Assembly (NCBI RefSeq): GCF_011683955.1
Contig: NZ_JAAQPI010000002.1
Coordinates: 696,157 to 760,156 of the forward strand
DNA: 64,000 nucleotides
Direction: 5' to 3'
Source: Pseudomaricurvus alkylphenolicus
GTDB taxonomy: Bacteria; Pseudomonadota; Gammaproteobacteria; Pseudomonadales; Cellvibrionaceae
Shown: piece by piece, positions 31,409 through 35,665 of the stretch
How positions within the stretch are numbered: the stretch's first letter is position 1
Layout: each line of letters begins with the position of its first letter
The notes under the pieces: generated by a model
What the model was told of the DNA's origin: nothing
Database searches by the model: none
What the model saw: the letters and a program-made list of their open reading frames with translations, nothing else
Made by a program: the position numbers and the translations under genes

Positions 31409-31511
31409 TCCTGGTTGTAAGTTCTACCTCGACACTGCAAGGCAGGTTTTACAACTGAAGTTGAATTCTCCGATTTGTCCGCAGTCAGACTGCGCAAGCA
31501 AGGGTATCGTC

Positions 31512-31913
31512 ATGACAGAAAAAAACACCAGCGGTTCCGAGATCAAGCTCAGCCGCCGCGAGCGGGAAATTGTGGACATTCTGTACGCCAAAGAGGAGGC
31601 CTCAGCCCAACAGGTGCAAGAGTCCATGAGCGATGCGCCGTCCTATTCGACGGTTCGGGCACTGTTGGCTCGCCTGCTGGATAAGGGCGCGGTGGATAAG
31701 CGTCAGGATGGCGCTCGTTATATCTATTTCCCTCGTCAGGACAAACGGGCGGTCAGCCAGAATGCGCTACAGCGTGTGGTGAAGACCTTTTTCGAAGGGT
31801 CGGCGGCCAAAGCGGTGAATGCCCTTTTGGGTGGGGGTGAGAAAAAACTCAGCAATGCCGAAATTGAAGAATTAGAGGCACTGATCGCCGAGGCGAAACG
31901 AAACAATCGTTAA
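31512..31913 (+). CDS. BlaI/MecI-family transcriptional repressor
   Basis: The 133-residue winged-helix protein carries KLSRREREIVDILY, the recognition helix region SYSTVRALLARLLDKGAV, and the wing DGARYIYFPRQDK. The C-terminal part forms the dimerisation helices with LSNAEIEELEALIAEAK. ATG at 31512 is preferred because AAGGG lies about eight bases upstream and homologues begin near here. It is followed after 31 bp by an M56 peptidase gene, the usual partner that inactivates BlaI by proteolysis. Confidence 0.9.
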   Translation: MTEKNTSGSEIKLSRREREIVDILYAKEEASAQQVQESMSDAPSYSTVRALLARLLDKGAVDKRQDGARYIYFPRQDKRAVSQNALQRVVKTFFEGSAAKAVNALLGGGEKKLSNAEIEELEALIAEAKRNNR

Positions 31914-31944
31914 CCGAAGGGATGGCGCTGCCGGAGGATTTGAA

Positions 31945-33453
31945 ATGACTCACCTGATCACCATTGGACTGCTAAAGCCCCTGTTGATATTGCTGTTGGG
32001 GTGGTTTCAGTTTCTGGGGCTAAAGAGCTTCTCCGCCACCACCCGACACCTCAACCTGCTGATGGTACTGGCTCTACTGCCCTTGTCGTTGCTGGTGGCA
32101 TGGTGGTTTCCTGCTCCCTTGACCATTGCGACAGCGCAGTTCCAGGTACCCGCGGAATGGCTTCAATCCAATCGTTGGACGCTGTTGGGAATCTACCTGT
32201 TTGCGTTGCTCTGGGGCGTCAATTACCTGTTGCTCGGTATATGGCAGCTGAGTCGGCGTCAGCCGGATATCACTTTGCCAGGCTATGATCAGCTGCAACA
32301 GGAAATCGATCATCTGAGCCGAATCAGTGGCATCGATCGGCCTGTCAGACTTATGTTGACCGAGGCAGAGCGCCCACCGGTTTCATGGGGGCTGTGGCGA
32401 CCGGTTATTGAGATGCCAGTGGAAGCGCTGCAGTGGGGGGCTGCAAGCCGGCAGCTGATTATTCTTCACGAGCTGGCGCACATCGGCCGAGGGGATTGGT
32501 TCACCATGCTATTGGGCAAGGTCATTTGCCTGTTGTTTTGGTTCTTGCCGCCAGTATGGTGGTTAAACCGTCTCCTTGCCGATATGGCAGAACGTGCCTG
32601 CGATGACTGGGTGCTGAATCATCGTGACCGCAACGAGGACTATGCGCAGCTCCTGTTGCAACTCGAACGGGGAGTGGGTGAAACCGATCTGCCGGTGACA
32701 CCACTGTTGCAAAACAGCAACTATGCCCGTATCAGAGCGCTGCTCGAACGCTACGCTGATCACGATATTCTGGTGCGTCAGGAATGGAAGAGTGCACTGG
32801 TAATGGCAGTGGCACTGTTGCTGCCGCTGAGCGCCGTGGGTCTGCGCGATCCGGGGCGTCAAACAACAGCAGAGCCGGTAAAGGCCATGCCGTTAGCGGA
32901 AATGGGACTGCAGGCCGCAAGGCCGTCTAGCTGGGATCACCTGATTCCAGAGCAGGACTACCGCCGACCCAGAACTCTTGTACAGGTACCGCCTCCGCAG
33001 GATCGACCGATGGAGCACTTGGCGGTGGTGGCGGCTCCGACCTTGAGCGTCCCGCCAAGTTTGATCGCGAGCGTCGACAACCCCAGTTTTGCCCAACCGG
33101 CTGTGCGGGTAAGAGGCTACCTGCCGGTAAAAATGGTGACGCCGGTCTACCCCCGCCGCGCCATAGAGCGACAATTGGAAGGGCGGGTAATGGTGCAATT
33201 TACCGTGGATGCTGAGGGCCACCCCCGCCATCCCCAAATTATCTACGCGCAACCCAAGGGGGTGTTCGAACGTACGGTATTGCGGGCGCTGGATGCATCG
33301 CGATTTGTTCCGCTGACAATTAATGGAGAGGCCGTGGACATGCACGGTGTCAGCGAAGAGTTTATTTTCCGCCTTACCGATGAATCTGCCGGAGGCAAAC
33401 CCCCACCTCGTTCTTCACCACCTGCGGTCACCGAGATCGCATTTACCTACTAG
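31945..33453 (+). CDS. BlaR1-like M56 membrane metallopeptidase with C-terminal TonB domain
   Basis: The 502-residue protein has about five membrane helices, with the zinc site HELAH at residues 175-179 in a cytoplasmic loop, as in BlaR1/MecR1. After the last helix comes a Pro-rich periplasmic stretch and then a TonB C-terminal domain (TPVYPRRAIERQLEGRVMVQ) in place of a penicillin-binding sensor. It should sense a periplasmic or outer-membrane signal and cleave the BlaI-type repressor. The signal is unknown; a beta-lactam is unlikely because no SxxK/SxN sensor is present. Confidence 0.88.
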   Translation: MTHLITIGLLKPLLILLLGWFQFLGLKSFSATTRHLNLLMVLALLPLSLLVAWWFPAPLTIATAQFQVPAEWLQSNRWTLLGIYLFALLWGVNYLLLGIWQLSRRQPDITLPGYDQLQQEIDHLSRISGIDRPVRLMLTEAERPPVSWGLWRPVIEMPVEALQWGAASRQLIILHELAHIGRGDWFTMLLGKVICLLFWFLPPVWWLNRLLADMAERACDDWVLNHRDRNEDYAQLLLQLERGVGETDLPVTPLLQNSNYARIRALLERYADHDILVRQEWKSALVMAVALLLPLSAVGLRDPGRQTTAEPVKAMPLAEMGLQAARPSSWDHLIPEQDYRRPRTLVQVPPPQDRPMEHLAVVAAPTLSVPPSLIASVDNPSFAQPAVRVRGYLPVKMVTPVYPRRAIERQLEGRVMVQFTVDAEGHPRHPQIIYAQPKGVFERTVLRALDASRFVPLTINGEAVDMHGVSEEFIFRLTDESAGGKPPPRSSPPAVTEIAFTY

Positions 33454-33513
33454 AGCAACGGCGGTAAACACCGCACGACTCTGACTTAACCAAACCTTGT
33501 AAGGAGGGTGTCT

Positions 33514-34131
33514 ATGGACATCGCAGCTACCGCTCGGCCTGAATTTACCTTTCTCAAAAGTCTGTTGGGGGCGACATGCGTTACCCTGGGGCTATTGTAT
33601 TTTATGCATTTTCTGGTGCATACAGAGGACATACCGCAGACCGTCGAACCGTCGGGGCCCATCGTTGATGTAGTGGCGGTACCGAAGGTGATAGAAACCC
33701 GCATCGAAGAAACAAAACCCGAACCACCGCAAGATCCGGCCATCGAGCCGACTATTGATCCACCGCCAATGGACACAGACTTAACCCTGGAACGCACAGA
33801 CATCAGCTCGACCATCCGATACACGCCCGAGACCGGCGCGCTTAGCGGTGTCACACTTGGTGGTGGGGGGCTTGTGCAGCAGGTGATGATTCCGCCCACC
33901 TATCCGCGCCGCGCCATTCAAAAGGAGGTGGAAGGATTTGTGGATGTGCGCTTTGAGGTCAACGGTGCCGGTGCGACCACTAATGTTCAGGTAGTTCACG
34001 CCAATCCGGAGGGTGTGTTTGAGAAATCAGCGGTGCGCGCGGTCAAGCGCTGGAAATACATACCGGATGAAAACAGGGTGGCGCCATGGCCCGTACTGAC
34101 CGAGCGTATTCGATTTACGCTCGATCAGTAG
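33514..34131 (+). CDS. TonB-family protein
   Basis: The 205-residue protein has one N-terminal helix (LLGATCVTLGLLYFMHFLV), a Pro/Glu-rich linker (TKPEPPQDPAIEPTIDPPP) and a C-terminal TonB domain with YPRRAIQKEVEGFVDVRFEV. This last domain closely resembles that of the upstream peptidase, so the two may share a partner. ATG at 33514 follows a perfect AAGGAGGG by five bases; GTG at 33508 overlaps it. It completes the three-gene module. Confidence 0.9.
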   Translation: MDIAATARPEFTFLKSLLGATCVTLGLLYFMHFLVHTEDIPQTVEPSGPIVDVVAVPKVIETRIEETKPEPPQDPAIEPTIDPPPMDTDLTLERTDISSTIRYTPETGALSGVTLGGGGLVQQVMIPPTYPRRAIQKEVEGFVDVRFEVNGAGATTNVQVVHANPEGVFEKSAVRAVKRWKYIPDENRVAPWPVLTERIRFTLDQ

Positions 34132-34158
34132 GGTTGAAATCTATCGCTTTGCGCGATA

Positions 34159-34578
34159 CTAACGGTGCTGCCGAATGGAATGCAGCACCACCCCTTCGAT
34201 GCGCAGCTCGGCGCTGTCGCCAAGGGACACTGGCGGCAGGTTCTCATCTCCGGACAGCAGCAGGCTGTTGCGCAAATCCAGTTCGCGACAAATCAGTTCA
34301 CCATCCAAAACCGCCACCACAATATCGCCATGTTGGGGCTTGAGGGCGCGATCAATGACCAGCAGATCGCCGTCCTGGATACCTTGATGCAGCAGCGCGT
34401 CACCCTTGGCGCGGGCATAAAAGGAGTTATCCGGCTGGCGCAGCAAATAATCGTTAAGGTCCAGGCCTGGTTCTTCTTCATCCAGCGGGCTACCAAAACC
34501 GGCGGTATCGCTGTGGAGGAACAGGGGTAACGCAATTTGGGAGCGAATCTCTACCGGAGCGAGTTCGGAAACATTCAT
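34159..34578 (-). CDS. UmuD-like S24 protein with both catalytic residues replaced
   Basis: This 139-residue protein aligns end to end with UmuD, and is the same length as the E. coli protein. The cleavage-site region reads TAGFGSPLDE with Ala26-Gly27. Where UmuD has GDSM the sequence is GDAL, so the nucleophilic Ser is Ala61; where UmuD has TVKKL it is ICREL, so the general-base Lys is Arg98. Self-cleavage is therefore not expected. Both codons (GCG, CGC) were read on the minus strand. ATG at 34578 is chosen because a LexA box lies just upstream; a longer frame to 34641 would run through that box. No umuC is adjacent. LexA itself is excluded because there is no DNA-binding domain. Confidence 0.88.
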   Translation of the reverse strand: MNVSELAPVEIRSQIALPLFLHSDTAGFGSPLDEEEPGLDLNDYLLRQPDNSFYARAKGDALLHQGIQDGDLLVIDRALKPQHGDIVVAVLDGELICRELDLRNSLLLSGDENLPPVSLGDSAELRIEGVVLHSIRQHR

Positions 34579-34596
34579 AGGGCTGCACTCAGATTG

Positions 34597-34616
34597 TACT
34601 GTGTTTTCATACAGTA
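34597..34616 (-). promoter_or_regulatory. LexA (SOS) box
   Basis: TACTGT-GTTTTCAT-ACAGTA matches the gammaproteobacterial LexA consensus CTGT-N8-ACAG, with perfect 6-bp arms. It lies 18 bp before the UmuD-like start, so the gene should be DNA-damage inducible. Confidence 0.93.
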
Positions 34617-34651
34617 TAAGAGGTTGCCTTACCGATTCCAACCCTTGAATG

Positions 34652-35665
34652 TCAGTCCGCCGGGACAGCGTAGAACAGGCAGTCGCTGGTGGCGATTTCG
34701 GGATTGCTGGTAGCCATAAAGATCTTCAATGGCATTGCAGGGTGAAGCCAGCCGCGATCAATACGGAAGAGTCTGCTGGCATGATCCTCCCCGTCGCGAT
34801 CGAGAGCCTGTATCAACCCAATGCCATCATTCCCTACCCATCCCAGTGAAGTGTCGATACCGGTGGTGCCGAAGTTACAGTGCTCGATACTTGGCCAGAG
34901 TGTAATGTCCGCATCTTCGCAGGGAGCTTCGTGATAGCGAACACTTACTCCAGGCTTGAGCTCAACCCGCTGGGGGTGCAAGAGAACCTCAGGCTCATGA
35001 GGGGGGGACTTAAAAATATCCTCGTGCACAGCCACCTGATGAATGCCCTGGTAAGCCACCTGCAGGGACTCCTCGTCCCGGGCCCCGCCACATTCAATGG
35101 TGATGGTGGGGCAGCCCGCATCAACTTCCATCAGACTGCCCAAGCGCACGTCGGGTACGATTACCCGGTTGCAAAACCAGCTGATCAGGGCGAGATGCCT
35201 GGGGCTGTAATCCATCGCAACAGCAAAAGATGGACCGCTGCCGGAGGTATTGTGGATGTCGATCAGGGCTTCGGGTTCCAGGTAGGCTATATCATCGGTA
35301 ATCTGGCGGGCCAGCCGACCGCAATCATCATCGTAAGGGGGGGCAAAGCACCGATTGAGGTCGCGGCTTCCGGGCAGCATCCGGTGACTGAACTCCGGAG
35401 GAGTCAGCGCTGTGGCCACAGAGGCCAGTAAGCAATAAAGGTCACAGGCCGGTGTGACATCCTCTTTGAGCCAGGCGAGCAGGGCTTCGGTGCCAGAGGG
35501 CTCGTTGCCATGCAATAGTGTGACGATGACACGCCGGCGTTTGGGGTTCCAGCCCGGTACGTAGATCCAGCAACTGTCCTGCAGCTGGTTCAGCCAGTCG
35601 TAAGCGGAGTGTGGCAAGTCCGTCTGGCGGGAGATAACGGGTAAACTGAGTGAAAGAGGGACCAT
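34652..35665 (-). CDS. M14 zinc deacylase, succinylglutamate desuccinylase/aspartoacylase family
   Basis: The 337-residue protein shows the M14/AstE zinc motif HGNEPSGTEA (His and Glu ligands) and the later ligand His in LIDIHNTSGSG. Such enzymes hydrolyse N-acyl amino acids or gamma-amide bonds. ATG at 35665 starts one base after the stop of the upstream GCS2-type ligase gene, so the two are translationally coupled. The ligase partner suggests that one enzyme forms and the other cleaves an amide; the substrate is unknown. Confidence 0.82.
   Translation of the reverse strand: MVPLSLSLPVISRQTDLPHSAYDWLNQLQDSCWIYVPGWNPKRRRVIVTLLHGNEPSGTEALLAWLKEDVTPACDLYCLLASVATALTPPEFSHRMLPGSRDLNRCFAPPYDDDCGRLARQITDDIAYLEPEALIDIHNTSGSGPSFAVAMDYSPRHLALISWFCNRVIVPDVRLGSLMEVDAGCPTITIECGGARDEESLQVAYQGIHQVAVHEDIFKSPPHEPEVLLHPQRVELKPGVSVRYHEAPCEDADITLWPSIEHCNFGTTGIDTSLGWVGNDGIGLIQALDRDGEDHASRLFRIDRGWLHPAMPLKIFMATSNPEIATSDCLFYAVPAD

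Follow-up and report, generated by a model that had tools for sequence, protein, structure and literature searches.

A UmuD-like protein without its catalytic dyad or UmuC carries a predicted sliding-clamp motif

Analyzing a 64,000-nucleotide stretch of the Pseudomaricurvus alkylphenolicus genome (the window), we found an intact gene for a UmuD-like protein in which both residues of the catalytic dyad are replaced, with no umuC beside it and with a canonical, predicted β-clamp-binding hexapeptide in its N-terminal arm. The reading that we consider somewhat probable is that this protein is induced in the SOS response, stays full-length for good and has turned into a stand-alone binder of the sliding clamp that restrains or manages polymerases without UmuC; its binding, its induction and its non-cleavage are inferred. 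Overall, the analysis suggests that some marine gammaproteobacteria use a UmuD relative, with a predicted grip on the clamp, as a natural means of braking or managing DNA synthesis after damage.

The protein resembles UmuD in sequence as well as in modeled structure. It matched Pfam Peptidase_S24 at 61.8 bits (cut-off 23.3), and its best solved relative by sequence was E. coli UmuD (8gmt_B; phmmer E 3.6e-24, residues 7-137). An AlphaFold2 model from a 71-sequence alignment (mean pLDDT 83, pTM 0.65) had UmuD and UmuD' as its best PDB matches (8gmt, 1ay9 and 1umu; TM-score on target 0.85-0.87), with the arm region, i.e., the first 40 residues, modeled at lower confidence (block means 54-72). The S24/UmuD fold expected of a UmuD is thus present by Pfam, phmmer and the model, and the catalytic Ser and Lys are not: given these matches and the replacement of Ser60 and Lys97, the fold is that of UmuD and the dyad is lost. 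Alignment and codons, along with Pfam and phmmer, bear out the original prediction of a 139-residue UmuD-like protein with Ala61 and Arg98, and the Ala26-Gly27 cleavage-site region that it had pointed to is kept in the alignment (Table 1). The minus-strand frame opens with an ATG at 34578 and ends with a stop codon at 34159-34161. On the NCBIfam model for the Pol V UmuD (NF007621), the window protein scored 95.7 bits, under the cut-off of 110, with seven other dyad-less, umuC-free UmuDs (described below) at 61.4-109 bits and a relative with Ser and Lys (L033) at 143.4 bits.

Table 1. Features of the umuD-like locus, in window coordinates.
Feature	Position	Strand	Basis
UmuD-like protein, 139 aa, broken Ser/Lys dyad	34162..34578	minus	Pfam, phmmer, AlphaFold2 model
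Arg98 (CGC) replacing general-base Lys97 of E. coli UmuD	34285..34287	minus	alignment and codons
Ala61 (GCG) replacing nucleophile Ser60 of E. coli UmuD	34396..34398	minus	alignment and codons
Ala26-Gly27, cleavage-site remnant	34498..34503	minus	alignment; missing from several relatives
QIALPL, codons 14-19, canonical β-clamp-binding hexapeptide (predicted) in the N-terminal arm	34522..34539	minus	sequence
LexA (SOS) box CTGTATGAAAACACAG, extended TACTGT-N8-ACAGTA	34599..34614	minus	sequence, pattern searches
Sigma-70-like promoter TTGGAA-N17-TATACT, -10 overlapping the LexA box	34613..34641	minus	consensus match only; shuffles give 0.3

The loss of the dyad is common to the genus. Orthologues with an open frame, 60-62% identical, occur in four of the five other genomes of the genus, namely Aestuariicella hydrocarbonica (G002), A. 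albida (G004), the Cellvibrionaceae MAG SAT230 (G003) and Pseudomaricurvus sp. HS19 (G005). At the Ser/Lys positions, the copies of the window, A. albida and SAT230 read A/R, that of A. hydrocarbonica S/R and the remaining genus copy L/R, i.e., Lys is lost in five of five and Ser in four of five. Sister homologues that kept Ser and Lys would have pointed to a recent inactivation, which is not indicated, as none of the five keeps both. For the closest genus pair (A. hydrocarbonica and A. albida), we obtained a pN of 0.049, a pS of 0.577 and a dN/dS of 0.046; two close pairs of a second group, in family f6, gave 0.055 and 0.033, and the other pairs with finite dS 0.06-0.34 (0.19-0.27 for pairs involving the window copy). 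Judged from these ratios, which are rough because dS exceeded 1 for most pairs, the protein with the broken protease is under purifying selection. A decaying pseudogene of a lost umuDC operon, a reading to which we give next to no credence, could account for the missing umuC and for a sixth genome of the genus that lacks the gene, but it is contradicted by the selection data: the closest-pair ratios are low, the copies show a third-position excess and open frames (uninterrupted in all five carriers of the genus, where an ORF broken in most copies would have spoken for decay), and operator and synteny are kept. With the Ser/Lys pair intact in no genus copy, open frames and purifying selection, the permanently full-length, damage-induced UmuD-like protein of the original prediction is the likeliest state, its dyad loss being kept under selection.

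All five genus copies (5/5 carriers) share one chromosomal neighborhood, with some neighbors missing from some loci. On one side lie what we take, by our own recognition except where profile-scanned, to be genes for a formyltetrahydrofolate cyclo-ligase, an exonuclease-phosphatase-family protein and a peroxiredoxin, and on the other presumably those for an ArsR-methyltransferase, MetK, AhcY, MetF and RsmE. In G001, the sixth genome of the genus, the umuD-like gene is absent though the flanking genes are present. The flanking ArsR-methyltransferase-like gene was present in 14 of the 16 genomes searched; in this region of G001, G010, G006 and G014, we found no ORF of at least 90 aa matching the window UmuD at E 1e-8 and no CTGT-N8-ACAG box. 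This four-genome comparison shows absence without distinguishing loss from gain, and only in G001 are the neighbors well enough kept to compare. As separate observations, the window genome (G000) measures 8.88 Mb in 70 contigs, large for a genus whose other five genomes span 4.0-5.7 Mb, and three plus-strand genes in a row at 31461-34131 of the window encode a BlaI-type repressor, an M56 (BlaR1) peptidase that has gained a TonB C-terminal domain, and a further protein of the TonB C-terminal type; relatives of the trio occupy this locus in G003 and also, with lower identity, in G014.

Beyond the genus, we assembled a panel of 176 distinct UmuD-type proteins among the matches listed (145 from 151 loci, 34 added and three dropped), drawn from searches of relatives, the family, the genome contigs, the order and the class, for which 80 regions were retrieved. 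Because its loci were chosen as those matching the window protein or A1-A3 best, the panel does not sample UmuDs at random, and L228-L230 came from a search with model A2, which itself includes the arm motif treated below. Short LexA-type matches (L016-L030) were not part of it; the motif count excludes L015, L122 (47 aa) and L179 (15 aa), and L239 had no match. Linkage to umuC was judged in the flanks, about 1.5-1.7 kb for most loci. Ser and Lys were both kept in 155 of the 176 proteins (139 with a umuC match in the flanks, 16 without) and not both kept in 21 (5 beside umuC, 16 without). The latter 16, hereafter dyad-less orphans, comprise the five genus copies; L009 from another genus of the same family, with G/G at the dyad; L117 (S/R), L139 and L142 (both S/C) of family f14; six copies from one genus of family f6, all A/R and present in 6/6 of its genomes; and L150 of family f43 (A/R). 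Hence, dyad-less UmuDs with umuC-free flanks occur in three other families of the order, an extension beyond the genus that the earlier reading missed. Their arms are 25-26 residues long in 16/16 cases, which leaves no N-terminal DNA-binding extension of the UmuDAb type, and the Ala-Gly cleavage site is also missing in L117, L139, L142 and the six f6 copies. A class-wide search added 29 further proteins, all with Ser and Lys.

Two observations on other members of the panel stand apart. In L150 (1656-2156 of the plus strand; G396), the 3' end overlaps an ORF and a LexA-like box begins 30 bp upstream; we presume from our own recognition that the ORF encodes a relative of YedK/SRAP proteins, NCBIfam giving only a sub-cut-off "hypothetical protein" match. 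UmuC-like polymerases have been linked with SRAP-like proteins (PMC12926913). Among the umuC-linked UmuDs with a broken dyad (L058, G/R; L059 and L060, C/K; L062, A/R; L177, G/K), that of Candidatus Kaiserbacteria (L062, 10001-10363) has an Ala/Arg dyad and an arm that reaches the cleavage-site Gly after only 8 residues. By its sequence it resembles a pre-cleaved UmuD' form, which may be a different route to doing without self-cleavage.

We found a clamp motif in the arm to be the feature that accompanies the dyad-less orphans. Natural clamp motifs read Q-aliphatic-x-[L/M]-[F/L] or Q-aliphatic-x-[L/M]-x-[F/L] (PMC11139829), a pattern that QIALPL at residues 14-19 of the window protein meets, within an arm modeled at low confidence (residues 1-30, block means 54-72). 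Defining a strict (Q[LIMV]xL[PAS]L) and a loose (Q[LIMV]x[LM]x[LF]) form, we found the strict motif in 15/16 dyad-less orphans (hereafter the motif carriers; L150 is the one without) versus 1/155 UmuDs with Ser and Lys (L095) in this panel of best matches (Fisher p 2e-19, ignoring kinship), and in 0/5 of the dyad-less, umuC-linked ones. The loose form occurred in 15/16 versus 4/155 (L095, L114, L169 and L195), and in 12/13 versus 4/125 before the motif-containing model A2 was used, whereas on shuffling the strict motif arose in 0.5% of the arms of dyad-less orphans and in 0.07% of those from UmuDs with Ser and Lys. As L095, in strict form, and L114, L169 and L195, in loose form, have the motif beside an intact dyad, the motif alone is not a sign of cleavage loss. 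In an alignment of eight members of the window group (identity to the first row 30-99%), no arm residue other than Met1, Q14, L17 and L19 was invariant. Residues 14-19 read QLNLPL or QLTLPL in the f6 group; QLSLPL built into the E. coli epsilon subunit made a strong clamp binder (PMC4478557). It is predicted, from the motif only and with no binding data, that the motif carriers bind the clamp. The motif, which had been missed earlier, would give the original idea of an "inhibitor or adaptor" a specific target.

The same segment could instead be an arm-docking element, i.e., a hydrophobic stretch that locks onto the protein's own body, with Gln14 adding a structural contact. QIALPL aligns with residues 12-17 of E. 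coli UmuD (IVTFPL, which has no Gln), residues 14, 17 and 18 anchor the E. coli arm (UmuD 3A, PMC5342242), and the PL[FY] part is also common in UmuDs with Ser and Lys. However, the added features are a Gln and an aliphatic residue at the very positions that define clamp ligands, and the hexapeptide is kept in two divergent groups, where the nearby cleavage-site residues are not, and we consider docking alone fairly improbable. Hardly any weight, in turn, goes to a residual autoprotease in which Arg serves as a weak general base and Ser, where kept, still cuts slowly. LexA with Lys156 changed to Arg keeps slow cleavage at high pH, a point in its favor for which we found no paper, and Ser is retained in four motif carriers, L002 and L117 (with Arg) and L139 and L142 (with Cys), for which slow residual cleavage is possible; against this, Ser is replaced by Ala, Leu or Gly in the other 11 of the 15, the window copy included.

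The gene is likely under LexA control, although regulation is inferred from the site only, so that the LexA-controlled promoter expected of a UmuD is met at site level. The original prediction was right about the LexA box itself and wrong about its distance from the ATG, which is 20 bp rather than 18 bp for CTGTATGAAAACACAG. Counted as a single site, the box is not significant, as one CTGT-N8-ACAG in the 64-kb window is what chance predicts (expected 0.82), and the 17 genome-wide matches of TACTGT-N8-ACAG, at 14 distinct places (three on both strands), compare with 13 for a backward control, making a lone half-extended box weak evidence. The argument rests instead on the full symmetry of the longer pattern and on the retention of boxes ahead of the orthologous genes. 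In the whole genome, TACTGT-N8-ACAGTA has only three occurrences: one is the box of the window gene, a second precedes recA by about 115 bp, and the third is on contig C68, close to where a long minus-strand ORF has its 5' end; imuA has a half-extended box beginning 29 bp before its ATG (recA and ImuA were identified by NCBIfam). TTGGAA-N17-TATACT was the sole promoter-like site in 34100-34700. Within 200 bp upstream of the 15 motif carriers, we found CTGT-N8-ACAG in nine cases and CTGG-N8-ACAG in three, and no LexA-type box in that interval for L117, L139 or L142. Elsewhere in the window genome, a box (CTGTATATATTTACAG) starts 26 bp before an ORF (L066:1527-2618, plus strand) for a PA0069-family radical SAM protein (496.5 bits, cut-off 360), a gene that may for this reason belong to the SOS regulon.

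As had been noted in the original prediction, no umuC lies next to the window gene. Searching with PF00817, we found two Y-family genes in the window genome, a DinB (508.6 bits to the NCBIfam Pol IV model) and a weak IMS match directly behind ImuA (197.3 bits, cut-off 150; called ImuB by position), and no UmuC among the matches, which answers with a DinB alone the question of a umuC or dinB elsewhere and leaves the UmuC partner expected of a UmuD missing. Across the 15 motif-carrier genomes, we classed each Y-family protein by which of three references (a DinB, a UmuC and an ImuB) it matched with the highest score; the first two references pass NCBIfam cut-offs, and the third is named by its place behind ImuA. 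All 15 genomes have DinB, 9 have an ImuB-type gene and 3 have UmuC; the absences are less sure in G003 and G281, because these genomes are 87% and 84% complete. With UmuC absent from 12/15, it is not a general partner, and the checkpoint formed together with UmuC by uncleavable UmuD in E. coli cannot be the general mechanism; the clamp, the replicase and DinB, the only Y-family protein common to all carriers, are the candidates for a common partner.

This distribution bears on two further readings. One is an uncleaved accessory subunit that binds DinB or an ImuB-DnaE2 mutasome and tunes fidelity, the motif only placing the complex on the clamp. UmuD affects DinB frameshifts in E. coli (PMC3901139), and the reading fits the universal DinB and the frequent ImuB; but ImuB is absent from 6/15 carriers, DinB is so common that its co-occurrence says little, and the flanks of all 15 carriers lack umuC, with no other polymerase gene recognized by eye in the ORF-listed loci. 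We regard it as unlikely, yet as an explanation to be kept in mind. Far less probable to us is a dominant-negative partner, or trans-cleaved substrate, of a live UmuD through heterodimers. S60A arms are trans-cleaved in E. coli (PMC5342242), and the three carriers with UmuC (G002, G004 and G281) each also have a UmuD with Ser and Lys beside umuC. The other 12 carriers have no UmuC, however, and in G000, G003 and G005 the only other match to the UmuD search was weak and lay in a frame of 208-273 residues, the length of LexA; L117, L139, L142 and the six f6 copies, moreover, have no site left to be cleaved.

Returning to the stand-alone clamp binder, we hypothesize the following sequence of events. 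LexA would repress the gene, and DNA damage would free it along with recA and the imuA-imuB cassette, as inferred from the box positions. The protein, which by sequence and model folds as UmuD and retains a 26-residue arm, would never have this arm cut off, since the dyad is lost, and QIALPL would remain free to dock into the hydrophobic cleft of the β sliding clamp. There, the protein may compete with other users of the clamp or manage them, the replicase and DinB being the most plausible of these, and would so be a natural counterpart of the engineered S60A UmuD that disrupts the α-β contact in E. coli. With an arm that would not be removed and a better clamp motif, the protein would hold the clamp-bound state until dilution or degradation, the output being a damage-induced brake or polymerase switch that is ended by dilution or proteolysis and not by self-cleavage. 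Non-cleavage, clamp binding and the braking or managing of polymerases rest on inference. In E. coli, UmuD binds the clamp with a KD of 5.5 μM (PMC11139829), α-β FRET was lowered by full-length UmuD and UmuD8-S60A and not by UmuD', and overexpressed UmuD8-S60A sensitized cells to UV even without UmuC (PMC5342242).

Compared with E. coli UmuD, the accessory autoprotease of Pol V, the window protein shares the S24/UmuD fold (37% identity to 8gmt_A over 98 columns), an N-terminal arm (26 versus 24 residues), a LexA box and, in the genus, a cleavage-site remnant, and differs in the replaced Ser60/Lys97, the missing umuC, the consensus clamp motif in the arm and a score under the NCBI UmuD cut-off. 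HumD of phage P1, a UmuD'-like protein of related fold (window protein 40.1 bits, under the NCBIfam cut-off of 120), is an armless, pre-processed form, whereas the window protein keeps its arm. Like engineered S60A-type UmuDs, non-cleavable forms that act on α and β (PMC5342242), it has Ala for the nucleophile and, by inference, persists at full length; unlike in those variants, the change is natural, common in the genus, selected, without UmuC and accompanied by an added Gln-aliphatic clamp motif. UmuDAb of Acinetobacter is likewise a UmuD relative with a role beyond that of a Pol V subunit, but it has an N-terminal DNA-binding domain and cleaves at A83-G84 (PMC4807011), in contrast to the plain 26-residue arm and missing dyad of the window protein. 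ImuB, also a TLS-family protein with its catalysis lost (PMC11791113), bears the clamp motif of its complex (PMC3901139), yet is of unrelated fold and partners DnaE2, while the window protein has no known polymerase partner.

Full-text searches of the literature, which left most subscription journals and bioRxiv preprints out of scope, returned engineered S60A-type variants, UmuDAb and reviews, and nothing on a natural UmuD that lacks both dyad and UmuC and carries a clamp motif. UmuD as a manager of polymerases is already known; the dyad-less, UmuC-free form with a clamp motif appears to be new. To our knowledge, E. coli variants that were engineered or overproduced are the main support for the notion of full-length UmuD as a replication checkpoint. 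An uncleavable UmuD that is fixed in nature, has no UmuC and is controlled by LexA would be evolution's version of the S60A experiment and would allow the UmuD-clamp contact to be studied apart from Pol V. It also calls for caution, in that proteins annotated as "Pol V autoproteolytic subunit" may be neither autoproteolytic nor components of Pol V.

Whether the motif groups arose once or twice remains undecided. In a first tree, the window group lay on one side of a 97/94 branch, with the long-branch L062 placed next to it; the f6 group, represented by three rows at that stage and supported at 100/99, stood among UmuDs with Ser and Lys. For a second tree, we removed the arm and dyad columns, thinned near-copies (167 to 136 rows) and left out nine long-branch rows (L053, L058, L061, L062, L177, L185, L187, L192 and L195); the best tree on these columns needed three changes for the 16 dyad-less orphans. 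A single clade of the two motif groups was not rejected (AU test, p 0.54), and the tree that held them together was 3.6 log units better than the free quick search. Hence, two origins are not claimed and the motif may have a single gain, with convergence possible. The counts are not phylogenetically independent, and the independent pairs (2 on supported branches, 3 on all) were too few for a test. With this in mind, we tentatively propose, in a generalization that we think nearly as apt to hold as to fail, that UmuD gave rise, perhaps repeatedly, to a distinct class of damage-inducible clamp-binding regulators, in which protease and polymerase partner were dropped, the arm was kept and a weak clamp contact was rebuilt as a consensus motif at the same position, yielding a natural, UmuC-independent replication checkpoint.

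Scans of viral sequences gave 81 loci with 72 distinct UmuDs, a set that was not used to form the idea: 69 had Ser and Lys, two C/R beside umuC and one A/K without umuC, and neither the strict nor the loose motif occurred in any of the 72. A viral or plasmid origin was set aside; the matches counted in annotated phage and plasmid records, for plasmids among the 5000 records listed, were all below 60% identity. Cys in place of the nucleophile Ser was seen beside umuC both in L059 and L060, which keep Lys, and in the viral L264 and L271, which have Arg, and these UmuDs are possibly a thiol variant.
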